A stretch of 64,000 nucleotides of DNA, from NCBI GenBank assembly GCA_021904315.1, contig CM038917.1, positions 18,708,041 to 18,772,040 on the forward strand. Direction: 5' to 3'. This document shows positions 3,170 to 51,539 of the stretch, piece after piece. Each line of letters opens with the position of its first letter. Within the stretch, counting starts at the first letter, position 1. The position numbers were made by a program, and so were the translations under genes. This DNA is from Sphagnum magellanicum. Its lineage: Eukaryota > Streptophyta > Sphagnopsida > Sphagnales > Sphagnaceae. Under the pieces are notes generated by a model. That model had not been told where the DNA came from. It saw only the letters and a list, made by a program, of their open reading frames with translations, and did no database searches.

Positions 3170-5200
3170 AATGAAGATATAGCAACTGCTTGCTGAATAC
3201 CAGCCAAAGAATAATCAGGTAAGGTATAGGCAAGATCATTGCCTTGCACCCTATGGTCACATGGAAGCACAGGGAATTTGATGGCTCTAACGTGCGCCAC
3301 ATGTAGAAAAATTGTTGGAAAAGTTAGGAGAAAAACATCACTACCTTCACTAGAGCCCCAGTTTTGGTAGTATTTCCCTACAACAACTACATTGCCTGCC
3401 TTGAATTCAGTCCCCCATTCACATGTGAAATCCTTCTCCACAGTATGTACAAGTTATGTACAAAGAACAACGTAGAAATCCACACCTTCACTGTTACCTT
3501 CTTCTGCATTTACAGCAAAGTTATCACTAAGTTCCAAGCAGTTTGCTAAGTAATCACCACATCTTCAATGGCAACAACTTCAATGGCAGACCACACATAC
3601 GTAGCATTGTTTGGAATGAGGACTTCTACATCCCAATCTTTTGTCCACACCAAATTCACACATTTCTTGTAGTTTGAATCCGGGAATAAACAAAAAAAGC
3701 AAGCAAGGTCTCTTTTGAATAGTTTATTGATATCACCAACACGAACAGATTTAACTGAATGCACATTTTGACTCCCTTTAATTGAATCACAAGTTTACTT
3801 GATTTGGCGATTAACATTTGACATCTTGACAAGCCAGAATACATGAATAATTGCCTTCTACACTCCAGAATATCAGGTTTCTGGCTATGAGGATAAATGT
3901 TTCTGCAACAAAACAACATCTTCGACATTCTGTAGTGTTAGACCATTTGGATCTAGCTGGCTGTGTCTAATGAATCTCTTCACAACTGCACCTGCCCCAT
4001 CATGGGGCCCTTTACTGTGACCAGTGCCAAAAAAAAGTCCAAAGCATCGTACACCCACCTGTCAAATATGGGTATCTATTAACAAAATACCATGGGGTTT
4101 TGCTTTTGAATTGAAAAGAACACCCATCTGACCACATCTAATGTTGAGTGGGTTGAAACCCCCTATCCAACACACTCTGTCAATGTAATAACAAGCAATA
4201 TTGAACAAAATAGCTTTCATGAGACTTATTGTCTAAGATATAAAAGTGGTATTTCATGAGTACTTGATAATCTTCATCATTGGGATCTGGATTCAGATTT
4301 CGCTGCCAAGTAATCTACACCAAGATTGTCACTTGATATGAGTGCCAGTGCATACTTTGCATTTCATTTTGAATTTCAAAGCTATAATTTTCAGCAAAAT
4401 CGATCATTGAAATAATTGTATCACTAGGAAAATGTTTTAAACACTCTTTGAACTGTTGGTCTTGCCAACGTGATACAAAGTTCTGGTGTACAAACACAAC
4501 AACAAAAGGTGTCCCTATACGCCAAGTGATTTCACTGGATTTTGAGTGAATTCACTAGTTGTAATGAATGGGGACCAGTGAAGAAGGAGTGAATTCATTG
4601 GTCTAGTGAACATGGACTAATGAACTACACCCACATTTTGTAGTAGTGAAAATATTGAAACTTTGGCTTTAAATAACTAATGAGCTCAACTGAAAAAGTA
4701 GATTTGTAGACAAGTTTTAGTTTCTTTTTTCCTCTCCTTTCTTGATTACAATGGTCTTTAGGGAAAAATGCTTCCAAGAAACTAGAAAATCTAACAAGGC
4801 GTCTTCCTCAATTGGAGAAATTGGGAGATTATCTACTCCACAATTTTCACATTCTCCTAGTAAGCACGCCCTTGCATGCCATTTAGAGAATTTTTCATGA
4901 GGGTAGACCACTGATTCCCAAAGTGAAGTAAGGTTAGGGTATGTGTTCAAGCCCATCACAAATAAAGGAGTCTAAATTGTTGGATTGACAGACCTCTTCA
5001 CAATTGCAGCCACAATTTGAGTGAATACCAGATGTGGTGCACATGTTGTTTAGACCAATTTGTAATTTATTCATTTCCACATGGTAAATACAACAACAAA
5101 CATTATGCTCTTTCATTTTCTTAACCAAGAATGGACATTGCGCATCAAACATTCTCTTCCCAATGATAATTCTAGGATGTGTTTTTTGGAATCATAAATA
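3170..5200 (-). pseudogene. Transposase-like protein, C-terminal part, decayed
   Basis: Reading right to left on the minus strand, one protein can be followed through several frame changes. It begins with a Cys-rich stretch (NVCCCIYHVEMNKLQ, then CNCEEVCQ, then ECENCGVDNLP), continues with VYKSTFSVELI and FVSRWQDQQFKECLKHFP, then the acidic blocks IDFAENYSFEIQNE and MWSDGCSFQFKSKTPWYF, then VNLVWTKDWDVEVLIPNN, and ends with VGKYYQNWG and FPTIFLHVAHVRAIKFP. The DFAENY and WSDGC aspartates could be part of a DDE-type catalytic site; that is inference from the pattern. Stops interrupt between FQPTQH and MWSDGC and at several other sites, and a 154-bp insertion lies at 4495-4648. It is a dead copy of a repetitive-element protein, and its superfamily is not named with confidence. 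Confidence 0.65.
4495..4648. mobile_element. 154-bp CACTA-type miniature element, TSD AAA
   Basis: The left end reads CACAACAACAAAA and the right end, reversed, CACTACTACAAAA: inverted ends differing at two positions. Both sides carry AAA (4492-4494 and 4649-4651), the 3-bp duplication typical of CACTA elements. It sits inside the transposase-like pseudogene, between the codons for PKFQYF and FVHQNF, and removing it nearly rejoins the frame (one extra T in a T-run). The inside repeats GTGAATTCACT-like words. Confidence 0.8.
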
Positions 5201-17730: not shown

Positions 17731-18171
17731 AAAGTGCCACCCCGACACCATGACATGATTCCTCACTCAGCACCTTCTTTATCCTTGAGACGAAATTTAA
17801 AGACACAAACTCCTTTCGTTTTCTTTTATTGAAGCTATTTTTTTTTCTTCACACCAATCATTCCTTCTACATCCACTTCAGGTACGTAACTTTCATTGTA
17901 TGAAAAGAAGAGCTCTTTCAACAAAAATCCCTCCATAGTTATCTAAGTTAACGACCATTTCCAAATAATCATTACCATTGAAATGTTTCCAAGATAGTTG
18001 AGAATGGTCAAATTGACATGATCATCTTCAAAAATGTCATCCAAATTACTTCTTTTAGATCACACGCCATAACACGACCTCTCGCAAAGAAAACAAATTG
18101 CATTACTTTCTGCACTAACTATTAAGCCGTATTGGTGGAGCTTCTTTTTGGCGCATGTCTTTTAAATTAGG

Positions 18172-18657: not shown

Positions 18658-18964
18658 TCTTGAAATATAATGTTTTTATTCAACCGAAAGCATAAGATAC
18701 AGAAATCAAATGAATGTCTTTAATTAAATAAATCAATTTGGATTCTATCATTTATCATTTAACAATAGTCTATAATGTTATAAGGTACTAGTTAGTTCAA
18801 TTTGAAGATTTACAATCAATTGGAGTATTTCTCTATAATGACTTTTATCATTCCTTAAAATATCTAATATACCCAAGGACATATGTAAAAAGGCATTGAA
18901 ATCTAGTTGAAGATAATGTCCTATAAGTCCTTTTAAATAAAGGTTGACCCATTTAGCTTGCCAT

Positions 18965-21430: not shown

Positions 21431-21431
21431 A

Positions 21432-22044
21432 TAGTAAACTCTCTCTAAACTAATATCCTTGGGACCAGCCGGAAGATATTAGTTTATGGAGGATATTAGT
21501 TTACACAAATTATATGGGGGCTAACAAAAATCATTCCGGAACCTGCCAGAGCAACATGGAAGGTCATGGAGGTTAGTACAAGGTCATGGATAATTGGGGA
21601 AGGTAACGGAACCTTGTGGAGCTTGGTGGAGGATCAAAGAAGCACATAGAAAATCATATGACATGAGTGGTAGAAATCTTGGCAGAAAGTGATGTTGTGG
21701 AAAGCTGCACTTTGGGTACTCTTAGAATACCTTCCTTCACTCTATAAAAGGGGATGTGGGCAATCGGTTGGTCAATCTTGTCCAAACCCTTTCCCCAAAA
21801 ACAGGAGCAGAACAATGCCATAGAAAGGAACTTTTCATACCACTATGAATGATGTATGTGTTTATATATGGTGCCATATGTATGATGTATTAGTTTATAA
21901 AATGTTATGGGACCGGAAAAATATTGAATATCAGTTTATGGAGAATTATTAGATTAAGTATGAGGCCCGCCACGGGCCTGTGCCTGCATATTAGTTTAGA
22001 GAGAATATTAGTTTACACAATATTAATTTAGAAAGAGTTTACTA
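21432..22044. mobile_element. pogo/mariner-type non-autonomous element, TSD TA
   Basis: The left end reads TAGTAAACTCTCTCTAAACT and the right end is its inverted copy with two changes. Both are flanked by TA (21430-21431 and 22045-22046), the target of Tc1/mariner/pogo elements. The terminal pattern with GGGACC about 30 bases inside resembles pogo/Tigger ends (family knowledge). GATATTAGTTTATGGAG-type subterminal repeats occur near both ends. The interior (21.54-21.87 kb) is of other origin and includes a TATA-like CTATAAAAGGGG. Confidence 0.75.
21742..21753 (+). promoter_or_regulatory. TATA-like box inside the pogo-type element
   Basis: CTATAAAAGGGG, a strong match to a plant TATA box, lies in a less AT-rich stretch. 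About 40 bases downstream is CCAAACCCTTTCCCC. No open frame follows closely, so activity is only a possibility; it may be a captured promoter or LTR piece. Confidence 0.35.
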
Positions 22045-32760: not shown

Positions 32761-33117
32761 TATCATACATTTAAATTACATTTTTTTTGATACAATTATG
32801 GTTTATTATAATCAAAATTTTATAATATTATTTCTTAAGTCGAATAAATGTTTAAGATGTGAGAAGAACTAATTTTTTCTTACATGAAAATTTTATTATA
32901 ATTTGAAGTATAACTTAAAATATTATATGTGTAAACATAATAAAATTTTATTCCATAAAATCAATTAATTATATGGCATTATTAATATTTAGAAGTTTAA
33001 ATTGATTATTTAGATTAATCTCTTATATAATAAAAGAACTCCTATTATATTTTTACTATAATTTATTTATGATCCATTTATAAATCATGCGATTGAATTT
33101 ATTTTTCCCACATAATG

Positions 33118-33640
33118 GTCATTGAACTTATATTGAATAATGAAATTCAAATATATATATATTTTCAAGTCAATTTATATTTTTAAGAGGAAAATGATAT
33201 GTGTGTACATTATTGGAAAAAAATTAAGTTTAAACTTTAATCTTGTCATTTGGACAAAATTGTAATAAGATATCAAAGTTCCAAAATTATGTTTCGTGTA
33301 ATGTTTTAAATGAAGTAGGTTAAATATAATGCACATTCCTTCTTTACCACAACAAGTGGGGTGGCTTGGTCGTAAAAGAGTTAATCTCCATCCTTGGCAT
33401 TCAAGAATCAATCCCCACAAATGACATGGATTGTGGTTAATGTTAGAATGTTGATTGAATATTCCCCACCTACATAGGCTAGGTGTTTACTAGGTTGACC
33501 TTAAGTAGGCACAATAGTTGGCCTACCTAGCAACCTGAACTAGCTTTTTAAACCTAGCCTATGTAATGACATGTGTCAACATTATACAAGTTGAATTTAA
33601 TGAAATTAACAATAATATATATAATAGTATTATTTTACTA
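33118..33640 (+). repeat. Dispersed repeat with tRNA-like module, partial CACTA-type element
   Basis: Alignable over about 500 bases to 49.85-50.34 kb, from ATTGAA(C/A) through the shared stretch TCATTTG(G/A)ACAAAAT, the tRNA-like module, and GACATGTGTCAA to AATGAAATTA(A/T)CAATAATAT. The 49.85-kb copy lies inside a delimited element (48322-50593). This one probably belongs to the element whose right end, reading CTTGTAGTG, is at 34979 and is itself interrupted by 33925-34970. Its left end was not found. Confidence 0.55.
33345..33425 (+). repeat. tRNA-like module 1
   Basis: GTGGGGTGGCTTGGTCGTAA resembles a D-arm with A box, and ATTCAAGAATCAATCCCC a degraded B box. Position and flanks match the modules at 43.8 and 50.1 kb. 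Not a functional tRNA gene. Confidence 0.4.
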
Positions 33641-34299
33641 TTTAAATAATAAATATTTAAACAAATGTATATAATGCGACTACATTTTTAAGTCACAAAA
33701 TCAATCACAAAATGACGATGCCACATAAGTTGGTTAGGATGGATGAAAAGTTCATGTAAGTCACATCTTTATGTGACTTCCATTACAACTTGCTACAACA
33801 TATTATCTTATGTACTAGAATTTTATGTGATTTGTCCAAGGCAATTAAACATTATAGGAAATCACATGTGGTAATTATAATTACAAATGAATTGCAAATC
33901 CAGTCGTGTATTTGAAAATTTCTTCATTACAAGAAATCATAGTTTATTTGATTGGGAAACTAAACCAAAACCAATCATTTTGACATTTGATCAATTTGAC
34001 CACTTAGTCATATTGGACAAATCAATTTGAACACGTCCAACTTGATTGATGGTGTTTTGACTAACCATAACATGGTCTTTTTTATTAGTCAAATTGAACA
34101 AAAAATTGGGTAGCTCAAAAAAATTAATTAAAAAAATGGCTCAATTTGTAAATATAAAAATGTAGATAATAAATAAATAGTAAGTAGTTACCTTACCCAC
34201 CATGGCCTCCTATCTACCTATTCACAACCCACCTATGTATACATTTACACCCATGTACAAGGTATATATACAAATATACATACTCCACATAATATATGT

Positions 34300-34375
34300 T
34301 CATAAAGGATATTGAACTTTGGTCTCCTTCGCTCCACACGAATGTTTTGGCCATCAAACCACCCCATCACTTTGT
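34300..34375 (-). repeat. tRNA-like module 2, reverse orientation
   Basis: On the minus strand GTGGTTTGATGGCCAAAACA is followed after about 28 bases by AAAGTTCAATATCC, matching the A-box and B-box spacing of the other modules. It is inside the element 33925-34970. Confidence 0.45.
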
Positions 34376-34464
34376 AAAATAATATGATAGCAAATGGATT
34401 TAACATGTATCTTTGAACTTCAATGAAATTTTTTGTTAATGTGTATAATAACATTTGAACTTCA

Positions 34465-34690
34465 TAAGTAGGTTAGTAGGTACCTAACTAGGTAAATAGG
34501 TAGGTACACATGCCTACCTACATATGTTTTTAAATGTTCATATCTATTTATGTAAATTATAGGTAGGTAGGTTGGTAGGTGTGTGTTAAGTAAGTAAATA
34601 CGTAAGTAAAACATATTTAGGTAAGTAAGTAAGTATGTGTTAAGTAGATAGGTAGGTAAGTAGGATAGTAGGATAGCAAATAGGTTAATT
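34465..34690 (+). repeat. TAGG-word array
   Basis: GTAGGTTAGTAGG, TAAATAGGTAGG, GGTAGGTAGGTTGGTAGG and AAGTAAGTAAGTATG recur, with one CCTACCTAC run of opposite sense near 34515. It is inside the element 33925-34970. The open frame of 82 codons on the minus strand (YLLTYL repeats) is a by-product. Confidence 0.75.
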
Positions 34691-34979
34691 AACCAAATTA
34701 ATATGGCCAATTTGACTAAGCATGGCCATTTAGTATGGTTGATTTGATTAAACCATGGGCATCTTGATGGACCATTTAAAAAGTTTGTCCTTCTTGACTA
34801 GATGTACGACTTAACACTTGATTAAAATGGTCACTTTAATAAAAAAAACCAACCAAAAGAATCATGTGTCTTTCATGCCCCATGCTTTTAATAAAAGTGA
34901 ATATCTTTTTCGTCAATGTGGACACTTTAATCAAGTTGAACCTTTTGAAAAACCATGATTTCTTGTAGTGCTTGTAGTG

Positions 34980-35230
34980 TTATGGATAATGAAACCTTAT
35001 TGTGATGAAGGGGGTTAAATATGGAAGGGCAAACACAACTTGTCACCTTTAGGCGAAATGGTGTGAAATTGGTATGGGCATTTATAAACATTTTGAATGT
35101 AGTACATCATTTTGGAATTTTGCACAATGATTTGTCCAAAGACAACATTATGTTGCATTTTTCACTAGACAAATTAGATGGTGTGTACATAACCATTTGC
35201 AATTGGGGTGAAATTGAATGCTTACAATAG
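34980..35230 (+). pseudogene. Protein-kinase-like protein, first fragment
   Basis: One frame reads NGVKLVWAFINILNVVHHFG, ILHNDLSKDNIMLHF, then GVYITICNWGEIECLQ and a stop. HNDLSKDN has the layout of a protein-kinase catalytic loop (H-x-D-L-x-x-x-N, with Asn in place of the usual Arg). NWG stands where DFG, or DWG in some divergent families, is expected, so the metal-binding Asp is lost. Upstream codons (VMDNETLL then two stops) begin directly at the right end of another element at 34979. The sequence continues in the same frame 5.2 kb away at 40450, beyond a nested insertion whose TGA target duplication restores the junction. A dead copy of a multicopy family. Confidence 0.7.
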
Positions 35231-36877
35231 GTGACATTACTACAACATGGCTTTTACACTATTAGCATCATGTTTAAAATGACTATATAGTCAATATTTA
35301 AAACACATTAGTAGTCTAAAGTGATTAAATGTGTCCATCATGATTAAGATCAAAAGTAGCAATGTCCATTATGAGTAAAAAATCTAGCATTATAGTCAAA
35401 TCATACAATACATTACACATGTGGTAAATGTAGATGCTCACATGGATTTGAATATGTTGACTAATATAACTAACATGACTAAAATTAGTTATGGAATATG
35501 ACACACATGATTATAATGTTATTTTTAATGACATGGTATTAATATGGGAAAAAATCTTGTTTTCAATTTAAAAACTTCATTACAAAAAAAATGACAAAAC
35601 ACATAATTATCATGATTTCAATTATTAATCTTAATTATTCAAATAAATAAATAATTTCCAAGGAAAAAAATTGAAAGAAAAGTAATGAAAAAATGGAACA
35701 TTAATTTATTTTTTTAATTTTATCAAAATTATTTTTAAAAATATAGTAATTAATTAAATATATATGCTAATCTTGAATTATTCAAATTCCATCATTCAAT
35801 TCATATTTGTGATGAATTAGTTGAATGCATATTTATGTATGATCAACTACCATGACTAAAATGGAATAATAAAATAAAGTAACTTCTTTTAATTTAATAA
35901 AAATAGAATAAAATCGATGCACGTCTCATTTAAATTTGAAAATTTGAAAAATAAAAATTAACTAATTTATGAAATTATAGTAAAATCGATTTTTTAAATT
36001 ATTGTAACATTGAATTCAATTCTTTTACTTTTATTCAAAAATTTGAGATAAGATTGAAGGCATACAAATTTTAATACCATAATATCAAAAGTGATTTTTT
36101 TTGTTATGATATTTTAAATATATTTTAATAAAAATATAATTTATGATACATACATAACATAAATAAAAACATGTAAATTAATGGAATGTCTAAAAGTTTG
36201 GATTGAAAAATTGAAGTCAATGATGAAAATAGGGAAACCAAATGTACCCAAAAGTTATATGCAAAAAAAATATTACTTGAATTTTTTAAACAAATATTTT
36301 ATTTTTTTTGAAATTGAAAGGAATCACAAAGTTGAATATGATTATGATAATAAATTATGTTTTCCTAAATAATTATAGATTATAACTCAATTAAAGATTT
36401 ATTAAATTAGATATGAATTTTTAAATTAAGTGATTTAATTTTTCTGTTCATATTTTGAATCTAATTTTTTTTAAAAATCAATTTAATTGTGAAAATAAAT
36501 GTTTTATTTAAATAAATATATTTCAGACATTACATATGAATTTTAAAAATAAATATTTAAAACCATTTTAGTTGTTGTACATTTTGAAATGGAACAAAAT
36601 CACAAAGTTTCATGAAAGTTAATAAATTAGATGTGCTTAAATAATATTTGAATATATAATTCAATTCAAAGTTTGAAATGATGCATTTGAATTTGTTAAT
36701 TAATGAGTATTTAGAACAATTATGATTTACACATATTCTTGAATTTAAAAAATTACAAAGTTCAATGTACTAATAAACCTACCAAATCAATTAAATCAAA
36801 TAGTGATATAGAATGAATTCAATTTTTTGTTCCTAATATGTGTTTATGTATTCTGTGACGTCATTTTTTGTCATCAT

Positions 36878-36955
36878 GTGAGGTGATGGTTTAGTGGTTA
36901 AGGTCTTAGAGTGTGGTTAAGAAGGTTGTGGGTTCAAACTTTAATTGGAGCACAC
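36878..36955 (+). repeat. tRNA-like module 3
   Basis: GGTTTAGTGGTTAAGGTCTT resembles an A-box region, and GGTTCAAACTT at 36931-36941 a B box 45 bases further on. It is inside the 35235-40446 element, 140 bases before the nested one. Not a functional tRNA. Confidence 0.5.
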
Positions 36956-37599
36956 TAAAAGAAATCTTGAGTTTGGGGATTCAAAGGCATATGATGTAGG
37001 TTAACATGATTTGTTAATAATGTTTGCCCAAATTGTTTTAAATAAATAAATAAATAAAATTTTTGCAACATTGAATCAGAGATTAAAGGTGCATTATGCC
37101 AAAACATGGTTTTCATGAGTAGGACAATTTGCAATTACTATCCAAGTATAGTCATGTAGTCATATTTTGACTTTAATCGTTGTCATTATTTTGATTACAA
37201 CCATTATTAAGACTACATGATTATAAATATGAATATAGGTAATTATATGATTATGAATTATGATTACACAATTAATAATCATGTTGAATATAGTTGACAT
37301 TGGTTTACCAACTATAATTTTAAAAAATAAACATGAAAATAAAAATAAATTTAATAAAAATTGGCCTACATTTAATTTAGGTTTAGTTTTGGTTTAACCT
37401 ATTTTAATTAACCTCTACATTTTATTTGATTGAATTTAAACATCTAGGTTTAACATCCTCAATTTTATTTTCTAAAATTAACTTCCATTAAATTTAGTTT
37501 ATAAGTTTAATTTAAGTAGCTTCATTTAGTCTATGTATATTTGTTAACTTAATTTAACAAATAGTTTGATTTTGCCCTAAATTTTTTAAGGTAATCCAA

Positions 37600-39330
37600 T
37601 CCAATGAAATTTAACTGAAATAAATTAAATTAACATATTTTAGCCTAAATATCTTGAATTAACGAAATTTAACCAAATTTTGATTACTTTAGTTTAAATA
37701 TCCAAAATTTACCAAATTTTGTCTAAACATTTTTTTTTTCAATTTTTGCCTAAATATTTTAATTTTATCAAAATTTTGCAAGTTTAATTGAATTTAAATT
37801 AAATAACCTAGTTTAACCAAATATAATTTTGTATGGTTAAATTTAGCCTAATTTAACCAAATGTAATTTAATATAGTTAAGTTTAACATAATATAGCCAA
37901 GTATAGCCTGATATAACATATTTTAACCAAATATAGTTTAGTATAGCCAAATATAGCCAACTATCACATATTTTAGCCGAATATAGTTTAGTAGAACCAA
38001 GTATAGCCAAGTTGAATCGAAAATAACCAAGTATAGCCTAATTTAACCAAATATAGCCTAATTTAGCCATGTGTAGCCAAGTTAAACCTAAATAATTTAC
38101 TTTTGCCAAGTTTAGTTTAGTATGACCAAATTTAGCCTAAAATATTCAAGTATAGCCAAATATTATCGAATTTAGCCAAGTTTAACCTAAATACCCTACT
38201 TTTACCAATTTAAACCTAGTTTGGCCTAATATAACTTAGTATAACCAAATATTACCAAGTTTAGTTTAAATAAGCTACTTTTGCCAAGTTTAACTTAATT
38301 TAGCCAAATATAATTTAGTATAGCCAAGTTCAACCTAAATAACCTACTTTTTCCAAGTTGAACTTAATTTAACCATATATAATTTAGTATAACCAAGTAT
38401 AGCCAAGTTTAACCTAAATAACTTACTTTTGCCAAGTTTAACTTAATCTAGCCAAATATAATTTAATATTGCCAAGTATAGCCAAATTGAACCTAAATAA
38501 CTTACTTTTGCCAAGTTTAGCCTAATATAGTGTAGTAGAACCTAGTTTAACCAAATATAGTTTAGTATAGCGAGATTTAGCCTAATTTTAATGAATATAG
38601 TTGAGTTTAGCCAAATTTAACTTAAATACCTACTTTTTGCCAAGTTTAACTTAGTTTAACTTAATTTAGTCAAATATTATTTAGTATAGTCAAATTTAAC
38701 ATAAATAACGTACTTTTGCCAAGTTTAACTTAATTTAATTTAGTATAACCAAGTATAGTCAAGTTTAACCAAGTTTAACCAAGTTTAGCTTAAATAACTT
38801 AGTGATACCAAGTTTAACATAATTTAGCCTAATTTAGTTGAATATAATTTAATATAGCCAAGTATAACCAAGTTTAACCAAGTTTACTTTAAATAATCTA
38901 CTTTTACCAAGTTTCACTTAGTTTAGCCAAATATAATTTAGTATAGCCAAGTATAGCCAAGTTTAGTCTAAATAACCTACCTTTGTCAAGTTTAATTTAG
39001 TATAACATAATTTAGCCAAATATAATTTAATATAGCATGCTTTTGCCAATTATAGGTAAATTTAGCGTTAATAACTTACTTTTGCCAAATTTAGCCAAGT
39101 ATAATATAATTTAGCCAAATATAATTTAGTATAACCAAGTTTAACCTATCATGGCCAAGTATAGCCAAGTATAGTTAAGTTTAACCTAAATAACCTACTT
39201 TTGCCAAGTTTAGCCTAGTATAGCTTAATATAACCTACTTTGACCAAATATAATTCAGTATTGCCAAGTTTAGCTTAATATAGCTTAGTTTAACTTAGGT
39301 TAAACTTAAATAACCTAGTTAACTTAAATA
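37600..39330 (+). repeat. TAGCC/TAACC word array with 75-125 bp higher-order unit
   Basis: The array is built from words AAGTTTAACC, AAGTATAGCC, AATATAATTTAGTATAGCC and CTAATTTAGCC. About twelve times the marker AACCTACTTTTGCCAAG recurs at intervals of 75 to 125 bases (for example near 38265, 38339, 38418, 38500, 38707, 39190), giving a loose higher-order unit. The array starts inside AT-rich subterminal sequence and ends just before the tRNA-like module of the same element. Confidence 0.85.
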
Positions 39331-39532
39331 ACCCCAAGGCAGATTAAGTTGCTTAAGTCTAGCCTAGGAAGACCTAGATTTTCTTAAAACAGTCTATGGA
39401 AGCCTAAGTTAGATTGTTGGGTGGCTTGTGTTAGCCTAGGTCAACCTAGGTCAGCCTAAGGAAGCATTAGCTAATCTAGGCTTTAAAAACTTATTTTTTA
39501 TATTTTTGTGATACCTTCATTTGTTAAATAAA

Positions 39533-39605
39533 ACATGTGGTCGTGTGATGGCAAAGGACTTTGCCCCTCCAAGTGGAGGTGAATGGTTCAAGTCCTCTTG
39601 CTTTC
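39533..39605 (+). repeat. tRNA-like module 4
   Basis: GTGGTCGTGTGATGGCAAAG is followed by GGAGGTGAATGGTTCAAGTC; the B-box match GGTTCAAGTCC is at 39585-39595. It shares GTGGAGGTGAA-like and GGTTCAAGTCCTC words with the module at 43.8 kb. The A-box part is weaker. Confidence 0.55.
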
Positions 39606-40449
39606 ATCCTATGTGCTTCTTAAGTTCCTAGGGGAATATTAGTGGAGTAGCCTTCCTAGGAGGAAGGTTAGGTGGTTGGCACATAGCCTAGGTTGTTTTT
39701 ACACCTAGGTTAGGTCACCTAGCTTAGCATGTAGACTAGGTCACCTAGCCTATGGTTAGGGCATAGGGCTCTTAGCCGAGTAGGTGGCCTAGGCTAGGTC
39801 CCAACTGTCATTATTTGATTAAAATTTGACTACCACGTGGCATCATATAATTGGGTAGGAAAAATAATTTCATTATTTTAGATTGCCACATGTCCACTCA
39901 AAAATGGTTAATAAATTTTTTAATTCATTCTAAGTTACCATGTGGCAACAAGACATTAATCACAATAAATTATAATTATATTTTTGAATTAAATTTTGGC
40001 CATTGAAGATGTCCTATAGTCATGGAGAACATAGTCGCAAATGGCATTTATGACTATGCCATTTTTTGTGACAAGTGGTAATACCATGGGCCATATGAAC
40101 TGGTAGTCATATAGTCATATTTTCCATGTTTTGGTGTAGTGGTGGTAGTGTTTTGGATCTACCTATAGTTCAAAAATATTAAAGTTCTATAATGTCATTA
40201 TGTATTCATATAAATAATATAACTTTTAATTTAAAATCAAATTAATATTGCCATGTCAATTAGTAGCTTTCGTCAATTTGGACAAGCATGTTTAGTCATG
40301 TTAATCATACATTTTATGTCACATTTGCGTAAAAAATGATTGGTTTGTTATGACTACAACCAATTTTGTCCATTGTTTAATGTGAGTAAAAATATGATTA
40401 AACTTAGTAAAAAAAACTAGTGTAAAAACACATATCTCTAGTAGTGTGA

Positions 40450-40832
40450 TGTCATCATTGCATAGATTTGCTAAGGAATAAGATGCCACCAATGCAAGGA
40501 AAGTGCATTGGTGGGTGGCCCCATAATTATTTTATGTTTACAACAAACCAGGAACTTCAAATTCCCTTTGACAAATGGTTAAACAACACCAAAAAATTGT
40601 GAAGCCTAAAGCATATTCGATGGGCAAGCTAGCAAATGTCATATGGGGTGAAAATTGGGATGCAAAATATTTTGTAAACAACTCAACCAAGATTTCATTT
40701 GTGAAGGTGTTCCACAACATGTATGAGCCAAATCTAGAGGCACAAAAAATTGTTCAACATGTCATGCACACATTGATGGGGCCTCCATATAATTGGACTA
40801 CACCTAATGAATGTTATCAAAGGCAGCCATAG
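40450..40832 (+). pseudogene. Protein-kinase-like protein, second fragment
   Basis: It continues the frame of 34980-35230: SSLHRFAKE, stop, DATNARKVHWWVAP, stop, LFYVYNKPGTSNSL, stop, QMVKQHQKIVKPKAYSMGKL, ANVIWGENWDAKYFV, and ends VMHTLMGPPYNWTTPNECYQ. AKE-DATNARKVHWWVAPE-like text fits the activation-loop to APE-motif region of a kinase (WVAP then a stop where E is expected), and AYSMGKLANVIWG the following helix F region. Three in-frame stops make it dead, but no frameshift occurs, so decay is mostly by point change. Confidence 0.7.
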
Positions 40833-41039
40833 ATAGTTTATAGTTTCTCCATATGAAATTTGGTGTAATTTACATGATCTCTAAAAAATGGCATGTTATA
40901 GATTTGCAAATTTTATAAAACCCAATTTTGTCAAGGAATCATGTTATCATGTGTAATCATATTTGAAATTTAAAACATATCCTTTTTACAGATTTAAAAT
41001 TTGTGGATCTATGTTCTAATAAAATGATGACATCTTTCT

Positions 41040-41291
41040 TGTAAACATAACAAGTAGTAATATCACATCACCTAATAGTCAAAGAGTCATTCTAGTCATG
41101 TTGGACAACCATCATAGTCATTTCAAACAATCATCTTTAATCATGTTAGTCATATAATTTTAGTAACATTTGTGTAAAAAATGATTGGTTTATTTTGACT
41201 ACATCCAATTTTGTTCATTGTTTGATGTGACTAAAAATTTGCCTAAACTCAATTAGAAAGACCAACTTAAAAACACATATTTGTAGTAATG
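41040..41291 (+). mobile_element. Right-end fragment of a CACTA-type element
   Basis: Closely similar to the last 190 bases of 35235-40446 (GTCATGTTAGTCATATAATT, TGTAAAAAATGATTGGTTT, AACACATATTTGTAGTAATG). The end at 41291 is followed by CAT. A matching left end with CAT was not found between 40.83 and 41.04 kb, so the copy looks truncated. Confidence 0.6.
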
Positions 41292-41299
41292 CATATTTG

Positions 41300-42230
41300 G
41301 ATTAAGTGTACAAGCCCTACAAGATATTCATTTTCGTGAATGAAATGATCACAAATGTAGATTTTAATATCAAACATTTGTAGATATTTGGGCATGAGCT
41401 TTGCTAGATGAATAATCATCTGCTTTTTAGTAAGCAAAAGACATTGGTTTTCCATAAATGCCTTACAAAGTTTTTTAATAAAGTCTTGGGGTGTGCACAT
41501 TGGAAATGCCATAAATATAAACCATAATCTAACCAAAATGATTATGAACCCAATAGATAATGTCATGGTTATTAAAAACTGGAATTGTAAAGTAGAGGTT
41601 TTGTTTTGCACTATTAATGTGGCTAGTCCTCCTGTACTTGGAGGCTCCTCATTCGATAGGAGAATTTGTGTTTACATATATTTTGTAGTGGAATCCTTTT
41701 GGTAGGATGTGGCATATCACTATGGTAGATACAATTTTTTTGAAAGCTATTAGAACCTTGCAACAATCACCATATAATGCTACCTTTTGTACAATGAAAT
41801 CAACTGATTGTTTGTGATTTGAAAGAAACTTTTGAATTTTATGATAAGATAACAAATAACATGTTTGAAGATAATTTCTATTAAAAATGTTGATGAAATG
41901 GTTATCACATTACAACATTTTATTGAAGACATGCCAATTACATTGAACATGACAACATGTAAGTTGTAATTCTCCAATTGGAGTTCATCCTCACATTTTT
42001 TGGGTTCAAAGAACAATAAACCTAGACGTTGAGTTCTGGAAAACCTTCTATGGTTTATAATCCACAATGTTAATGATCAATCATGATAATTCAATTGTAT
42101 GTATTGTATCCTTTGAAGGGTTTGTTCCAAATGCTTGTATTGGCTGAAATCTTAGGCCCATGTTTTTATATGTATGTCCTCATCATTAAAGAATCACATG
42201 ATGTGATTAAATGAAAATGTTTGCACATAT
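41300..42230. other. Sequence of unknown origin with minus-strand protein-like frames
   Basis: Minus-strand frames at 41267-41611, 41649-41855 and 41780-42067 overlap and have fairly ordinary amino-acid content (for example LENYNLHVVMFNVIGM), so this may be a decayed element gene. No domain was recognised. Confidence 0.3.
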
Positions 42231-42233
42231 ATT

Positions 42234-42945
42234 GTGGATGATGTGAGTTCATTTCATTGTGGTTCACATATTGAGCTAGCTTTGCAAGAAATTGCAATGA
42301 TTTTTAGATTCCCAAAAGAAATTCGGCCTACAATGGAGGTGAGCAAATATCATTTAATTTTTGACTTGAATGGTGTACTTGTGGCAACTAGAGAGGGTCA
42401 AATTACTACATCTCACCTAGTGGTTTTGAGGCTTGGGTTGAAAGAGTTCTTCTCCACATGTATAAAGAAATTCAGGGTGTACATTTGGTCTTTGGCAATG
42501 AAAAAAAAACTTTGCTAGGCAGGGAACAAATTTCAATTTTCTGCTAATATTTAAAATAGTAGACTAGACATTATGTGTTAAAAATGACCACTTCTTCCCT
42601 AAGAAGCCTATTTTTCATACAAACCTAGATGATTTTTTGGGTATGTTTCATGGTGTGAACTTTGAAAATACATTGCTTGTAGATGACATGCCTCACATGA
42701 GTATGTTTAATCTTCCTTTCAATGCCATCTTCCTTGAGAACTTTTATGGGTCAACATAGATAGTCATTACTTGCTCTAAATTATTATCCTTTACTTGGAA
42801 TCCTTGCATTCATCCGAAATGTGGAATGTGAGTTTATAAATTTGTAAAATTTAATCCTTTGGTAACATTACGCACAATCTTCCTAATGACCATTCAAATG
42901 CCAAATTCAATACATGTTGTTCTTTCAACATTTTTATAAGAGGGT
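42234..42945 (+). pseudogene. FCP1/SCP-type HAD phosphatase-like protein, decayed
   Basis: One frame reads EVSKYHLIFDLNGVLVATRE, then VVLRLGLKEFFSTCIKKFRV and YIWSLAMKKKLC up to a stop at 42516. After a frame change it continues as KKPIFHTNLDDFLGMFHG, VNFENTLLVDDMPHMSMFN and NAIFLENFYGST, then a tail (VYKFVKFNPL). FDLNGVL is the HAD motif I (D-x-D-x-T/V) with the second Asp replaced by Asn, YIWS is the motif II region, and LLVDD the motif III/IV acidic pair. This order is typical of FCP1/SCP-like phosphatases. Loss of the second motif I Asp would impair catalysis even in an intact copy. It is 136 bases upstream of a CACTA-type insertion. Confidence 0.75.
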
Positions 42946-43269
42946 TAGATTGAGATTTTAAAATTTTAAAAAGTGAAATATCTTATTTAATTATTAATGA
43001 ATTATGATGCATGGATGATTTAACATGATTATTTCATGTCTAGCTTTAACTTGAGTTCAATGTGATCCATTGTGCCATACACACAACGTCAAAACGTGTC
43101 TTTCATGACTTGGACATTTACGACTAATGTTTAATCTACTCATGTAGTCATATGTCCCCAGTCATATACTTTTACTCAAATTTGTGACTACATTGTAATT
43201 GCATTATGACTACGTGATTAGATTAGGATTATTTTTGTGACTACATGACTAACTTACATACATTATTAA

Positions 43270-43760
43270 CCTACCTATGTTAGTAGTTTAATTAGGTGCT
43301 AACTACCTACTAACTATTTATTAGCTACCTATAAAGTAGCTAGTACCTATGGGCTAGTACTACCTATTATCTACCTACCTATTATGTAGTACATACGTAC
43401 CTACCTATTAGACATAGGTAGTACATACCTACTTAATTACCTACTATGTACTTACTACTAGGTACCTACCTACTACCTATTACTAAATACCTACCTACCT
43501 ATTATTTATTATTTAGTACATACTTACCTACCTACTAAATAGGTAGTATGTACCTACTTACCTACCTAGTAGGTAGGTAGTACATACATATCTACCTACT
43601 ACTTTGGTACCTACTTATTAATAGGTACCTATTTACTACTTATTTATTACTACCTCTAGGTACTACTTACTTATTACCTACCAAACTAAATACCTGCTAG
43701 GTTATTAGGTAGGTTCTAAATTCTTACATAAATACCTAAGTACCTAACTTATAAAGTAGG
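43270..43760 (+). repeat. CTAC/GTAG word array
   Basis: CTACCTACCTATTA, GGTAGTACATACCTACTTA and TAGGTAGGTAGTACATAC recur in both senses, so many local stretches are self-complementary. It is inside the element 43082-44298 and ends 50 bases before its tRNA-like module. Confidence 0.85.
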
Positions 43761-43809
43761 TTAGAAAAAAATGTTTATAAAAATATGGTGATAATTTTTG
43801 TCGTGTAAA

Positions 43810-43890
43810 AGTCATGTGGTGCAATGGTTAAGTGGGGGTTAAAGACTTTTTCCTTCACTATGGAGGTGAAAGGTTCAAGTCCTCACACTT
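43810..43890 (+). repeat. tRNA-like module 5, best preserved
   Basis: GTGGTGCAATGGTTAAGTGG matches the A-box/D-arm pattern. GGTTCAAGTCC at 43872-43882 is a near-perfect eukaryotic B box (GGTTCRANTCC), with a plausible long variable arm between. CCTCACACTTGCAAC follows, with no proper acceptor stem. It may be a remnant of a tRNA-derived sequence or SINE fixed in the element family. Confidence 0.6.
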
Positions 43891-44688
43891 GCAACTTAGT
43901 GAACTAGCCTAATTAGCTTAACTTGCTAGCTAAGTTAACTTACATTCCTAGGTAGGTTAGGGCGTGCATTCCTAACATATAAGTTGGGTCTTAGCTTTTA
44001 TACCATGTGTCTACATGCCACATGTCTACATGGCATGGTGGAAAACATATTTATTTCATATTTGATGAATTATATCCAATGGCCATAATTTATGAATTTC
44101 ATCAAACATTGATGACCTCCATGATTTTATAGTTGCAAAAGTCACAGTCACGAATTGTCTTGTGATTGAACCACACTGTGACTAGGTGTCCTAAATAACA
44201 TGTCCTATTCGACTACATAGTCATGTAATCATAAATGTCTTCCATGACTAAGAATCTAGTCAGAAATCAAGTTGCAAAAAACAACTTTTCTTGTAGTGAC
44301 AACTTGGTGCCACCAAATATTATGGGGTTATAATTTGGAAATTGTGGATTGACAGGGATATTGTTAGACATAATCCATTGTTCTAATTGTATACATGTGG
44401 ACTAATTGCCACTAGATTCCTTTTGCAAATAAATTAGGATTTCATTGTAAGTTAATGACTTGTTTGAAATATCATAATGGCATAGTGGTTGTTAGGTGCT
44501 TGTTGGAAACATTAATGGATTTCATGGTGACTCAATGTTTTGTATAACAAAATAACATTAATTATTGATAACACATTATCATTTGATCATCAATTGATTT
44601 TTTAAGGCATGCATAACACATTATGTTATCATGCTTTCATATTGCCTTTTGCCAACACATTTTGTTTTCATTTTAGTTCAATGTTTCC

Positions 44689-45390
44689 ATGAGGTTAGCT
44701 ACTATGATCAAAGGCACTTTGATGCATTCACGTTTATGTTCACAAGATATTGGACTTAAAAAATTATTAATTCTTAGAATCAATAGATTAATGTTATGTT
44801 ATTTCTTGCATTGTGTTGTTTTACAAAGGAATGTTCAAGTGTTTGGAAGAAATATTGATAAGAACAAAATGTAACTTAAAGCTAGAGTGAAGAATTTTCT
44901 TGCTACAACATTTAAAAAGTTTTATGCCATAATTTGGTTTTGTATGAAACTTGAGGATGTGTTGGAAGTTTTTCCAATGTTGATGCCAAATGTTTTTTTG
45001 GATCAACTCATTTTCATTTGGGGATGTGAATAATGCTCCAACATGTTTAATGAAATTACACCCAAGTCTTATTATTATATAAAGGACTTGCAACAAATCT
45101 ATTATGCTTATCGTGGGCTACTTTATGGGAAGGAAGATCAAACATTATTGATTCACGATGAACCTAGCAAGGTGCTTTGGAATCCAATGTGGAGTGGTTT
45201 TTTTCTTGAGTCTTTTAAAGGAGATGTTGTCAAAGAATAAGGTGCAATGGTTGGACTTGCCAGTTTGTTTGTGACCAACCTAAGTGATCGGATTGCCATT
45301 GGTGAAAATGGTTCAAATTCACTAGGACATTATGATCAAGTATTCTAAGCTTCATTTAAATTCTTCTTCACAAAGTTATTTTTGGTTTTT
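44689..45390 (+). pseudogene. Second HAD phosphatase-like protein, decayed
   Basis: One frame with only two stops runs from 44689 to 45240. Its blocks are LMLCYFLHCVVLQRNVQVFG, then KARVKNFLATTFKKFYAIIW followed by FCMKLEDVLEVFPMLMPNVF, then PKSYYYIKDLQQIYYAYRGL, and EDQTLLIHDEPSKVLWNPMW. The spacing FLATTF-K-KFYAIIW resembles HAD motif II, and TLLIHDEPSK motif III/IV with the first Asp of DD changed to His. The motif I Asp is not visible (LRINRLM). Downstream, KNKVQWLDL-like codons continue to about 45390 in another frame. It differs from the copy at 42.2 kb, so this is a second subfamily. Confidence 0.7.
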
Positions 45391-45399
45391 ACAATATGT

Positions 45400-48320
45400 G
45401 AATAATGACAACATGAAAATGTTTGCAATAACTAACCCCCTTTAGATATGCACTTTAAATCATTTCATCTATTTCCATTTTTTCATTTTTCAAGTCATTT
45501 TTTATGTTATAACTTTGACAATACATTGTTATATGTTTTCATATGCATTCATTTTCTATTACTAACTTTTGTTTACAATTGGTAATTCTAAATTTTTTAT
45601 TTATATAAATAGTGGATTATGCATTTATGATAGGTTTATTGTTTTTGAATTTTGTATGAAGATTTTTCGTGAAGTCCTTTTTTGGTGTTTTAACAACTTG
45701 GTGGGCACCACATCTCAAGGTTCAATTTGTATTTGAAATATTCAATCATTTTCTTCGTCTATGTAAATTGCATTGTTAACCACTTGGTGTTTATAAGGCT
45801 TAATTTGCACATGGGTGATGTAAGTTGCATTTTGTTAATTTTTCAAAAACAAATTGTTATGGTTAACAACCTAATGGCCACTAGGTCATATTTATAATTG
45901 AAAGGCTCACTATTTGTATGATGGGTCAAAGCATGATTGGGGTACCAAAAAGGATTGTCTTATTAAATATATAGTGGATTCCTTCACTTGAACATGTCGT
46001 TGAAACTTAATGGTACATTCATATAAAAAATGTGTTTTTTTCATAGATACATACATTATTAATTAAAGTACTATTTTATGCATAATATTTCAAATTTGAA
46101 CAAGTTTAAAGATTCCTAACAAGTTTTGAAAAACTTTCTAGGACTTTATTTCATGGAAAAAAATAGTTCAAGGATTCATAATGAACGTTTAAAAATTTTA
46201 TTTTTCCCAAGATTCTTACCATAAACACTTTAGCTCCTAATGTATATAAAATGTTCAAGTGTGACAAGAACCAAGTGCTCTAGATTGTGATGTATGAAGT
46301 TTCCAAAAAGTAAAATTTCTAAGAATTTTAGGCCATTGATAGCACATGGCTCACATTCAATAAATTTTACTATTCTTATTGAAGTGAAACAATAAATACT
46401 CTCGATGCCTATATAAAATTTGGAGCAAATTAATTTCATTTGATATAAGAAAAAAAAGGGAAACATAAGATAGGTCATAGGTTTTATGAAGAAAAAAGGT
46501 GAATTGGGGTGTCCAAGGAAAGAGTCCTTATGTTTCAAATGGGGTACCCCAACTCTGCTTGGACCTTGGTATAAATTCCATGTTTGTATTATTTGACTTT
46601 TGTAAAGTTGAAAATTAATATAATACATGTTTTAATTAAGGGGCCCCTTTGTGAAAATACTCCTACTTGATGGAGCACTTGCTCAATTTTGAAGGGCTTT
46701 TGTTCAAACCAAAATTCAAAGTTGGAGCATTTATTGATTGAATTCAAATTTTATAACATGAACATATTAATCATAAAAAAAAAATATTCCATGATTAACA
46801 TGATATTAAAATGATACCCCATTGACATATATGTAAAAAAGATTGTAGTTTTTTGGACCATTTGACATGGTTTTTGCTTCATTGTTTTTTATTTAGACCC
46901 AACCTTACTATTTAAAAAATTAATATTCAAATTTTATTGCAACCAAAAAAAAAAAAACTTAACATCATTTCCATGAACTCTAGTGTTTTACAATACTAAA
47001 ACTTTATATGAAGCAATTATAACAAATGGTATTATTCCTTCTTATTCATTTTCAATAAAATTGCATAATTGGATATGGTTCTTGAGTTGTGTTTTATGGC
47101 ATTTAAGGACTATTTTTTGTTATCAAAATTATGATTTAAAAAAAAGTATTGATCTTAATGTGCATTCCTATGTAATGAAAGAAAAAAATTATAGAACTTC
47201 TTGGTCATATTAGTCATAACAATCAATCAAAACATTCTTTTTGTATTTGGACGTTGCACCCCATTGCCAATATTGCAGTACCTTTACTATTTTGACATTT
47301 CTTGAACATTTTGTTTTTCATTTCAATAATAAAAATAAAAATATTTTGAAATTCCTCTATTCAAGTGGGAAAAAAATGCCTTAGGCACATTGCACCACCA
47401 AGCTTTATGGATGGCAATCAAATCTAGTAATGTTAAACAAATTTCTAGAACTTTTGGCATTGCCAACAATTGCAAAACTTCCACATTTATTGAAAATAAT
47501 TTAATTATTGTTTGAATGGTAAAATTACCATGGTAGATTGATAGTTTTGTAATGTTCAAAGGACAACATAAATGAAAGGAAGGGTTTCAAGACTTGTATC
47601 ACATATGTTTGCATGTGTTGTTGCAAAAATTATAATTTAACATCAAAATCCTAGGTTCCATTTGAAACAAATGTCAAACAATTCATTTGTGCATTTACAT
47701 GTGACAAGTGATATAGTGGTATTAAGTGCATGCAACATAGTAGCCAATAACCCTAACTTTGGTTCGACGTACAATGTTGGACCATAGGCCCCAAGGTAGT
47801 AGCAACAACTTGTGTTATTGCCTAAACTTATGGATTTGACGCATGACCTTTTAGTGCCATTGATTATTGTTGTCCATAGGAACAAACAATAGTTTTTGGA
47901 AAACAACAACTTTTAAATTAGCACATGCAATAGACTTGGCATTTTTTTATATTTGCATATGCTTTTCAAAGTTGAAATAAGTTTTTGCACTAGAATAGCT
48001 TTCCTAACCATATGCAAGTATTAAAAGATGCCAAGTTGCCACTTTTGTTGTCCTTTCCCATTTTGGGTGTAAGCAAGATAAGTTATACATTCTTGCTACC
48101 TTGGTAACTAATTACCAAAAAAAAAAAAAGTAACTAATTGAAAAAATTCATTCATCAATTGTTGCCTTGATGGAAGTTCAAATGGGTAAAAACACAATAA
48201 AAGGAACCACGATGACCAAGGTTAAAGTCTTTACTAAGGATTGCATTTTACATGTGTCCTACATGTATTAGTCTATTAAATATCAAAATTGTATTTTAAA
48301 TGTAATTTCTGGGATTGGAT
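45400..48320. other. AT-rich intergenic sequence, nothing firmly recognised
   Basis: Frames of 80-130 codons on the minus strand (46230-46628, 47323-47559, 47643-47909) show no domain I can name. GGTGGGCACC and ATGGCCACTAGG words of the 19/29-kb satellite occur singly at 45.70 and 45.87 kb. Confidence 0.45.
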
Positions 48321-48499
48321 ACATTAGTACAAAAGTGCGGTGTAGTTCAGTAGCTTAAACCACTATGGGACTTTAAAAGTGAAATCAGTTCATTACATTT
48401 TAATGATTTCACCGTGGTTAAAGTTATTTCACTATATTATCATTATGTAAACATCATGTTTCATTACTAGTTGACATAATTCACTATGATAATTTATTG

Positions 48500-49790
48500 T
48501 TGTAAATAAGTTTATTTTCATGTTATTGTTTTAAATACCCTATGCTATTTTATGGTATACCATATATTAATTATCTTAACTTTTACCTTAAATTATTATA
48601 ATTTATTATAGGTTATTATAAATTATTATACCTTAAACTATTATACGTTATTCTATTTTAAGGTATCATGGTTAGCTTATTATAAAAAAATTTCCTTGAA
48701 ATTATTTAAAATCAAATTATTCAACTAACCTTAGGCTATACTTTAATTAAGTTGTTTTTATTTTAAGTTAATATATGTTATTTCAAGTTATACTTCAGGT
48801 TATTTAAGGTCATTTCATTTATTATATTATTATAATTTATTTTATCCTAAATATAACAATTTAAAATATTCTAAAATAACATATAATGACTTAAAGTAAA
48901 ATAACCTAGAATAATCAATAATAACCTATGAAAAATAATTTAGAATAACCAATAACTTATGATAATATAACTTAGAATATCCAATAATAACTTATATAGA
49001 ATAACCACTAATAACCCCCAATAGAATAGCCATTAATAAAATAACCACTAATAACTACTAATAAAATAACCATCAATAGCCACTAATAACCTATGTTAAT
49101 TTAGCCACCAATAGCCATTAATAACCACCAATAACCTATGATAATTTAACCTAAAATAACCATTAATAACCATTAATAACCTTTGGTAATTTAGCCTAAA
49201 ATAACCACCAATAGCCATCAATCGCCATTAATAAAATAACCATCAATAACCATTAATAAAATAACCATTAATAGCCACAATAGAATAATGACCAATAACC
49301 ATTAATAGAATAACCATTCATAGCCACTAATAAAATAGGCACCAATAGCCAATAAAATAGCAATAAATAGCCTATGGTAATGTAGCTTAAAAAAACCAAT
49401 AATAACCTAAGTTGAAATAACTTTCAATATAAAAAAAACTAATAATAACCTCACATAACCAAAAATAACCTAAGATGAAATAATTTAGAATAGCCAAAAA
49501 TAACTTATAATAGCCGTAAATAGCTTAAAGTGAAATAATCTACAATAACCAACAATAACTTACAATAGTTGAAAATAGCCTGAGGTGAAATAACCTAAAA
49601 TAGTTAAAAGTAACATAAAATAACCAAAAATAATTTTGAATAACCGAAAGTAACCTAAGGTGAAATAACTAAAAATAGCAAAAAAACTAAGAGTAGCCAT
49701 AAATAGACGTAAATAATGTAGGGTGAAATATCTGAGAACAATGAAAATAGCCTTAGAATAGTTGAAAGTAGCCTAACATAGGTAGTATTA
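48500..49790 (+). repeat. ATAACC/AATAGCC word array
   Basis: The words AATAACC, ACTAATAACC, CATTAATAGCC, AATAACCTATGATAATTTA and, to the right, GAAATAACC/AAAAATAGCC recur for 1.3 kb with drifting composition: ATTATAC/TTATTATAG words to the left, ATAACC in the middle, AGGTGAAATAACC to the right. No fixed period. Confidence 0.85.
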
Positions 49791-50077
49791 TTATATTAAC
49801 AAAAATGTTATCCATTTTTTTAACATTTTTTTCCAAAAAAATGGCCATTGAAATGTTATTAAATAGTGATATTCAAAAAAAAATTATTCAAATGATTTTA
49901 CACTTTCAAAAAGAAATAAATGTAATTATGTATATTATTGAAAATTTTTAAAATTAACTTTAATCATTTCATTTGAACAAAATCTCAATAAGATATGAAA
50001 ATTTTCAAAATTTATGTAATGTTTAAAATGAAGTATTTGATAAATAAAATGTAATGTAACACGTTATCACAACAAGT

Positions 50078-50150
50078 GTGGTGGTTTGATAGTAAGGGTG
50101 TTTACCTTTATCCTAAAGGTCAAGGGATCAAACCTCACAAATTATGTGTT
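50078..50150 (+). repeat. tRNA-like module 6
   Basis: GTGTGGTGGTTTGATAGTAA is the A-box region, and GGTCAAGGGATCAAACCTC the B-box region with an insertion. Aligned to module 1 through the flanking repeat. Confidence 0.45.
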
Positions 50151-50668
50151 TATGTTCAACAATGGTAAGTTGATCAAATATTCTCCTATGTAGTTCCCTA
50201 TAATAGATGTTCACTTAAGTTGATTAAATGGATTATGTACCAAGGCTAGGTTTTTAACCTAATATAGGTAGTGACATGTGTCAATAATTCATAGGCTTGA
50301 AATAATGAAATTATCAATAATATGAAATATTACATTAAATATTAAATAATTTAGATTTAATTGATTTGCATGTTGCTTAGTTAATTAACTAGCAAGTGAA
50401 ATGGCTTGGTAAATTTGTATTTCATTTGAAAATAACTTTGTTTCATTAAGTATTAGTGAACTAATTCATTGTCCATAACAATTTGTCCCCATTCAATAGG
50501 GCGGGTTGACTCATGTCACCATAATAAAAATGTCCACATCCAGTCAAAATTTAATGAAACCCAAAGTGAACTAAAATGCATTTTGGTGTAATGATATTAA
50601 TATTGAAACTAAAAATGATTCATATTATAAAAAAACTATTTGTTTTGCATGCGGTTGATTATGGTCAA

Positions 50669-51515
50669 GATCCATGAAGTTGTAGAGTAATTTCCACAAC
50701 AACATTTAAAGGTAACACAACAATGAATGCAGTCATAACCTCATGAGAGTCGCTCACAAAGTGACAGACCATCACCTTCATCACGAACGGCAGTGACGAG
50801 CTGCCATGACTACCCACTAAGTTCGTTAGCTCCCAACAGTGGGTGTAGATAAACACATAATAATTTTCCCAAAAACTTCGGCAAACCATTATACACAATC
50901 TGCGTCCTGAGTTTTTGTTGCCTTTCCGGAAGCAATGGGAAGACTTAGACGTGACGTTGGCTAGCACTCAAGAGACATTGCTAATAAAAAAAAGTCAACA
51001 GTATCCTCATTCAAGCTGCAACAAGCTTCTAAAGGAAAAAAAATTTATTTCATTTTAGCATGTCCCTGTATATGCAAGCATCTATGCCTAAAAGACATAA
51101 AGGCCTATATATAGGGTAGTGGTTGGGGCCTCCTGCACCTTGAACATATCCTTTAAGCACACCATTGGTGACTACTTGGATGCATAACATCCGTTAAAGC
51201 CACTAGAAAAAAGATCCATGAAGTTACAGAGTAATCTCCACAACAACAATTAAAGGTAACACGACAATGAGTGCAGTCATGACCTCATGAGAGTGGCTCA
51301 CAAAGTGACAGACCATCACCTTCATCACAAACGACAGTGACGAGCTGCCATGACTACCCACTGAGTTCATTAGTTCCCAACAATGGGTGTAAATAAGCAT
51401 ATAATAATTTTCCCAAAAACTTGGGCAAACCATTATACACAATCGGCGTCCTGAGTTTCTGTTGCCTTTCTGGAAGTAATGGGAAGATTCAGACATGATG
51501 TTGGCTCGCACTCAA
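50669..51515. mobile_element. Element with 303-bp terminal direct repeats (TRIM-like)
   Basis: Two copies of a 303-base sequence (50669-50971 and 51213-51515), starting GATCCATGAAGTT and ending GCACTCAA, flank a 241-base interior that holds TATATATAGGGTAGTGG. The copies differ at roughly one base in ten. Each carries a similar minus-strand open frame of 95-100 codons (shared GRRLCIMVC, FWENYY, HSHEVMTA-type blocks). The flanks GGTTGATTATGGTCAA and GGTTGATTATAGTCAA match at 15 of 16 positions. That is longer than the 4-6 bp expected for an LTR element, and the repeats do not start TG or end CA, so the class is uncertain. Confidence 0.6.
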
Positions 51516-51539
51516 AAGGTTGATTATAGTCAAATGTAT

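Follow-up and report, generated by a model that had tools for sequence, protein, structure and literature searches.

We analysed a 64,000-bp stretch of Sphagnum magellanicum DNA (C11:18708041–18772040; hereafter, the window), which has one open reading frame (ORF) of at least 150 amino acids (aa), together with the whole genome of 438,994,042 bases in 31 contigs. The window contains five long CACTA-type DNA transposons, and its elements represent at least five multi-copy CACTA families, not one. A tRNA-like module, carrying an A box and a B box spaced as in a tRNA and directed at the right end of the element, is an inherited part of several of these families; its boxes suggest that it derives from a tRNA. 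The initial annotation of this DNA had described the elements as a single family with a conserved interior, a view that had to be given up: between the five long elements, BLASTN at E 0.001 yielded only one stretch, which belongs to the word arrays described below. What the families have in common is a plan in which the module points to the right end, mostly from a distance of 350–550 bp.

CACTA-type inverted ends were found in the window and in genome copies alike. The six end pairs with 3-bp target-site duplications (TSDs) reported in the initial annotation are all present in the sequence (6/6): 33925..34970 on the minus strand (TSD CTT; terminal inverted repeat, TIR, 20/24), 35235..40446 (+; TGA; TIR 13/24), 37092..40141 (+; GTG), which is nested in the former and interrupts it, 43082..44298 (+; ACA), 48322..50593 (+; ATA; TIR score below the listing limit of 13), and a 154-bp CACTA-ended element at 4495..4648 (+; AAA; TIR 16/24), which is too short for the layout discussed here. 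The accompanying argument, that six 3-base matches are very unlikely by chance, proved weaker within the window than claimed and drew its support from the genome copies. When a TSD and a TIR identity of 16/24 or better were required, the window contained 4 end pairs (one of them, 18101–21694, absent from the earlier list), compared with an average of 1.05, and 4 at most, over 40 Markov shuffles, and only 33925–34970 stood clearly above the shuffles unaided. The genome copies, however, back the ends of the 33925, 37092, 43082, and 48322 elements, the left end of 37092 being backed by two copies.

For the 33925-type elements (the alpha family), the 18-base end CACTACAAGAAATCATGG occurred 65 times in the genome, and its reversed control was not found. 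Twenty of these places were retrieved over the full reach (L009–L028); a partner end lay within 10 kb in 13 of them, and the other 7 had no partner within that distance. The genome was also searched with DNA queries from the 37092, 43082, 48322, and 35235 elements, each query giving 48 to 894 candidates, of which the best 40 were scored; the 39 places cited for each search are its best matches besides the window copy itself, and scoring of this kind favours copies that retain module and end together. Matches to the right part of 43082 stopped at position 519 or 520 in 22/39 cases (the end being 519), with none going past 528, and those to 48322 stopped no more than 3 bases from the end in 28/39, the farthest reaching 13 bases beyond; none of the other matches for the right-hand portion of 37092 extended past 40141. 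Copies of 43082 and 37092 (L041–L047) were taken from the top-ranked matches of these right-part searches. All five 43082 copies retrieved, which were the five best matches, span reference bases 1–1217 with their ends at the same places, and the left end of 37092 falls at the same base in L046 and L047 (the retrieved stretch does not reach their right ends). A full-length copy of 48322 (L048), picked for a nearby transposase match, aligned over bases 1–2272 with a TIR of 11/20. The 3-bp TSDs that the initial annotation anticipated across genome copies were recovered in part: they are exact in 9 of the 13 two-ended alpha copies, in 2 of the 5 copies of 43082 (GTT; a third has GTT only via an alternative end, and two have none), and in the single 48322 copy (TTG). 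Because genome copies share the same limits, we accept the elements as real. In an early test, pairing by identity of the ends flanking modules gave 19/32 modules vs. 43% of controls at score 16 and 13/32 vs. 10% at score 18, and was too loose, often joining wrong pairs; the ends of the L040 type occur at 103 places, with no pairs recognized by eye among those listed.

Six tRNA-like modules in the window are mutually alignable. Five lie in the long elements, namely M5 (34296..34371, −) in 33925–34970, M1 (36879..36952, +) in 35235–40446, M2 (39531..39606, +) in 37092–40141, M3 (43817..43893, +) in 43082–44298, and M4 (50073..50143, +) in 48322–50593. The sixth, M6 (33353–33427), for which no convincing end pair was found, lies in a 48322-type remnant (33102..33660, +) that had been missed earlier and that matches 49828–50360 at 68% over 574 columns. 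A sequence-only model (R1), built from 15 modules (alignment A3), scored 58.8 bits on M5, which is itself in the model, 48.3 on M2, 47 on M4, 44.1 on M6, and 39.6 on M1, and had no match in the 154-bp element, where no tandem array was listed either. M3 reached 18/18 in a generic A/B box scan of the window, in which 2 of the 10 matches were modules and M2, M4, M5, and M6 fell under threshold. Over 270 kb, R1 returned 49 matches, 33 of them at E ≤0.0003, and it detected modules outside its training set in L022, L025, L026, and L028 as well as in all seven family copies L041–L047.

The initial annotation would have counted it against its view if most genomic copies lacked both array and module; this is not the case: the module was present in 13/13 two-ended alpha copies and in 39/39 of the best matches to the right part of 43082. 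Nine of those 13 alpha copies also served in building R1, and in the long L025, L026, and L028 the module may be that of a nested element. Of the 20 alpha-search loci, L009 and L020 had no module, and the link between module and end is unclear in L016. M5 recurs in the six other alpha copies of the alignment, M3 in 5/5 retrieved copies, and M4 in L048. Right-part matches contained the module whole in 38/39 cases for 48322, the remaining one starting just inside it, and for 37092 they had it joined in 30/39 and as a separate piece in 2 more. The 35235-type search used a plain 242-bp query (36850–37091) and thus lends partly independent support to the module: 39/39 other listed places overlap M1, nine of them ending by query position 145.

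A pattern for the A box, with the B box excluded, was found at 231 places in the genome, as against 1 for the reversed pattern. Nine of these loci were picked at about equal intervals along the list, leaving out alpha-type and already retrieved places, and a tenth was chosen for a transposase match nearby. R1 matched in all ten, and nine of the matches extended into the B box. A right-end motif lay 350–500 bp downstream in 6/10 loci, compared with 8.7% of control windows, and occurred in 1/10 in the mirror window upstream (300–560); the other four loci align with CACTA families, so that 10/10 are CACTA elements. For this reason the module is not a free short interspersed element (SINE), and that candidate was rejected; free-standing module copies with their own ends numbered 0/10 in this sample, SINE tails and separate duplications not having been the object of a scripted search. 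L033 has the same module type and the same right-end type as 35235, 456 bp apart, which, together with another right end at 41127–41291, supports the 35235 type.

The distance from module to right end was 354–398 bp in alpha copies, about 408–411 bp in the 43082 copies (about 405 bp in the window element), 402–456 bp in the six pattern loci with the motif, 450 bp in 48322 (from coordinates), and 535 bp in 37092; longer distances were seen in L022 (493), L011 (714), L025 (795), and L028 (848). Meanwhile, the elements themselves are 1.0 to about 6 kb long, and nested insertions may account for the longest. The initial annotation had proposed a fixed internal order of word array, module, and CCTAGG tail, of which the module ahead of the right end is supported well beyond the window; neither the tail nor the array is universal. 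Arrays precede the modules in four of the five long elements, as described there, all with approximate limits: a poorly conserved TACC-type array at 34470..34700 (−), a pentamer/decamer array of TAACC, TAGCC, and TTTAACC at 37780..39330 (+; from tandem-repeat rows), a TACC(TA) array at 43270..43770 (+; also in the 5 retrieved copies, shortened in L043), and an AATAACC-type array at 48860..49780 (+). C-words outnumbered G-words by 41 to 2 in the 1200 bp ahead of the 37092 module and by 45 to 3 in the 48322 array. The 35235 element has a module and no word array, again as annotated. At least six C-words (TACC/TAACC/TAGCC) occurred in the best 300-bp stretch ahead of 21/32 modules (11/11 alpha modules and 10/21 others), compared with 25% of controls. 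Because an array was clear in only three of the ten pattern loci (L032, L034, and L039), we regard it as common, and a universal word array is rejected. In seven alpha copies aligned over the whole element length and compared in 30-base bins, four array bins showed 0.64–0.70 identity vs. mostly 0.76–0.89 elsewhere, and the lowest bin (0.56) fell in the G-word stretch after the module.

The 250 bp after the module held 16 CCTAG/CTAGG words in 37092, whose tail runs from 39620 to 39810 (39620..39810, +), 2 in 43082, 1 in 48322, and 0 in both 33925 and 35235; at least two such words followed 15/32 modules vs. 14% of controls. A universal CCTAGG tail is thus rejected, there being none in the alpha element of the window, the 35235 element, or the L040 type. 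A general RNA structure of the tails was likewise unsupported: the 37092 piece had a folding z of −4.2, and the 43082, 48322, 33353, and 33925 pieces had z of −0.25 to −1.2. A 120-base window at 33461 reached z −5.9, and the wider 213-base piece only −0.5. As candidate subterminal motifs, TAGTCAT-like words were seen by eye in 35235, 37092, and 43082 only.

Across five family consensi, the 12 tRNA-critical positions, which we took to be the tRNA-invariant set, agree at 0.967 and the 62 others at 0.651, a difference found in 0/20000 permutations; for this test 24/33 rows of alignment A4 were assigned to families by hand, with nine left unassigned, and two of the five consensi are single sequences. 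The cells of the cloverleaf were paired in 59.4% of cases vs. 58.8% when shuffled, with 149/500 shuffles as high, so that the cloverleaf is without covariation support; the pairing and the covariation score are nevertheless somewhat above those of slid versions (50.4–54.2% paired), and the result is not a clean negative. Because the boxes are kept and the cloverleaf lacks such support, a promoter or factor site at the DNA level fits better than a folded tRNA.

The reading we favour, with about as much confidence as doubt, is that the module may serve CACTA elements, at their 3′ end, as an inherited internal promoter of the RNA polymerase III (Pol III) type or as a TFIIIC site. On this account, the elements are non-autonomous members of several CACTA (En/Spm) families with a common inherited 3′ cassette, in which a module of tRNA origin faces the right end, carries both boxes, and often follows a length-variable C-rich word array. 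The boxes would work on the DNA itself, either as a type-2 Pol III promoter or as a landing site for TFIIIC, and would keep the 3′ end open or yield a short RNA there; the open end or the RNA could favour mobilisation by a transposase made elsewhere, and elements losing the module would have left fewer descendants. A stronger version, which we consider rather doubtful, is that a CACTA lineage adopted a Pol III promoter in its 3′ end and that the Pol III RNA or the TFIIIC-bound site is needed for efficient mobilisation, the host machinery acting as a working partner.

Several observations weigh against the promoter reading, among them the cloverleaf pairing and the scarcity of arrays among the pattern loci. 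Since the initial modules were detected via their boxes, the figures for box conservation are inflated. Among alpha copies, the module shows no better conservation than its flanks (bins 0.81 and 0.76). T-runs are an ambiguous sign with respect to Pol III: TTTT is rarer inside modules than in controls (6/44 vs. 56%), yet AAAA is also depleted (15/44 vs. 53%), and the six modules that hold an internal TTTT would be expected to stop Pol III there. ARAGORN called no tRNA in the window and none in L009–L028 except one outside the element of L014, and the Rfam tRNA model reported no module in the window stretch and six loci tested; a tRNA gene is accordingly rejected as an identity for the modules. 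The one ARAGORN call is a tRNA-Thr (TGT) at L014:9594–9666, outside the CACTA element, and is presumably a plastid gene in nuclear DNA.

A further point against it is that no transposase-coding element with a module was found among the loci and the listed places with PF02992, a domain with at least 152 matches in the genome, several of them in open frames. Two loci, L029 and L030, have long open tnp2-type frames of 674 and 811 aa, with no such end pairs within 10 kb and no module. Listed coordinates compared by eye gave two PF02992 places near modules, at L040 and L048, where transposase remnants adjoin the elements and lie outside them; by our own estimate, roughly 1 module in 100 would have a neighbour of this kind within 3 kb by chance (657 candidate places). 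The autonomous partner with the same ends, which the initial annotation proposed to look for, was therefore not identified.

The main rival, and the next-best reading, is that an ancestral CACTA element captured a tRNA gene or SINE head and that the module has since been copied along without function, which we consider plausible but short of an even chance. CACTA elements do capture other sequences (PMC8978399), and the decay of the alpha module at the rate of its flanks, the cloverleaf without covariation support, and internal TTTT in 6/44 modules are all as such a fossil would have it. Less easily explained in this way are the persistence of the box positions between families with otherwise little of their interior in common (BLASTN E 0.001) and a right-end distance that stays mostly at 350–550 bp while element length varies from 1.0 to about 6 kb. 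It is unlikely that the module is instead bound by some DNA-binding protein, whether coded by a transposon or by the host, its tRNA likeness being secondary. The boxes rather than the stems are conserved, and CACTA subterminal repeats bind TNPA-like proteins (PMC2613891); the module, however, is present as a single copy per cassette and not as a repeat. In addition, its conserved set coincides with the positions we take to be tRNA-invariant, at tRNA spacing. That an active SINE of tRNA origin inserted several times over into unrelated CACTA elements, as the resemblance of the boxes to SINE heads might suggest, is very improbable given that in several families the module faces the right end from a similar distance and that 10/10 pattern-chosen modules lie within CACTA elements. 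Chance production of CACTA-like ends, 3-bp matches, and box-like words by AT-rich sequence, to which the near-shuffled number of most window end pairs and the 8/10 generic scan matches that are not modules might point, is next to impossible, and for the elements it is refuted by multi-copy families with the same limits and by the 231 vs. 1 pattern places.

Plant CACTA elements (En/Spm, CMC) and their non-autonomous derivatives resemble the moss elements in their CACTA-type ends, 3-bp target duplication, and divergent subterminal sequences (PMC8978399 and PMC2613891); what sets the moss elements apart is the tRNA-like module that at least five families carry close to the right end. Neither tRNA nor SINE is mentioned in PMC9946827, and tRNA is not mentioned in PMC8978399 or PMC2613891. 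In CACTA elements of the Jozin type of Chenopodium, tandem repeats are added close to the 3′ end (PMC8978399); what some of those elements gained is a satellite array, whereas in the moss words of 4–10 bp and a module recur in several families. In the open-access literature, as covered by titles and the starts of abstracts, no account was found of DNA transposons that retain a promoter of the Pol III type as a constant component. tRNA-derived SINEs have in common with the module an A box, a B box, and the spacing of a type-2 Pol III promoter; unlike them, the module lies inside CACTA elements in 10/10 sampled loci and moves with a DNA transposon. In two Sphagnum genomes, CACTA tops the classified repeat types at 6.8% (PMC9946827). 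If the module works as a promoter or factor site, the most abundant classified repeat of peat mosses would be linked to Pol III or TFIIIC, and the module would offer a handle on why non-autonomous elements retain internal sequence and a marker for annotating many of them.

Other features of the window and the genome were also recorded. The 35235 family has another right end at 41127..41291 (+), missed earlier, which is 81% identical over 165 bases to 40282–40446 and whose partner end was not found. Right parts of the 37092 type cluster at C13:19.37–19.48 Mb and C9:1.61–1.76 Mb, four places each, perhaps through segmental duplication. Between two CACTA elements, at 42207–42515, lies a fragment, perhaps a piece of a captured gene, that resembles an NLI-interacting-factor phosphatase (PF03031, 3.8e-5); immediately to the right of 48322–50593 is a 308-bp direct repeat (50667–50974 and 51211–51518) whose copies are 91% identical. 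Broken frames with DUF7869 (PF25273; E 2e-23 for the better piece) occupy 15907–16545 on the minus strand. Finally, a near-perfect inverted repeat with arms of about 40 bases is found at 47927–48048; it scored as a hairpin of the plant miRNA kind (MIR6288) below the curated threshold, and it may be a small foldback element.

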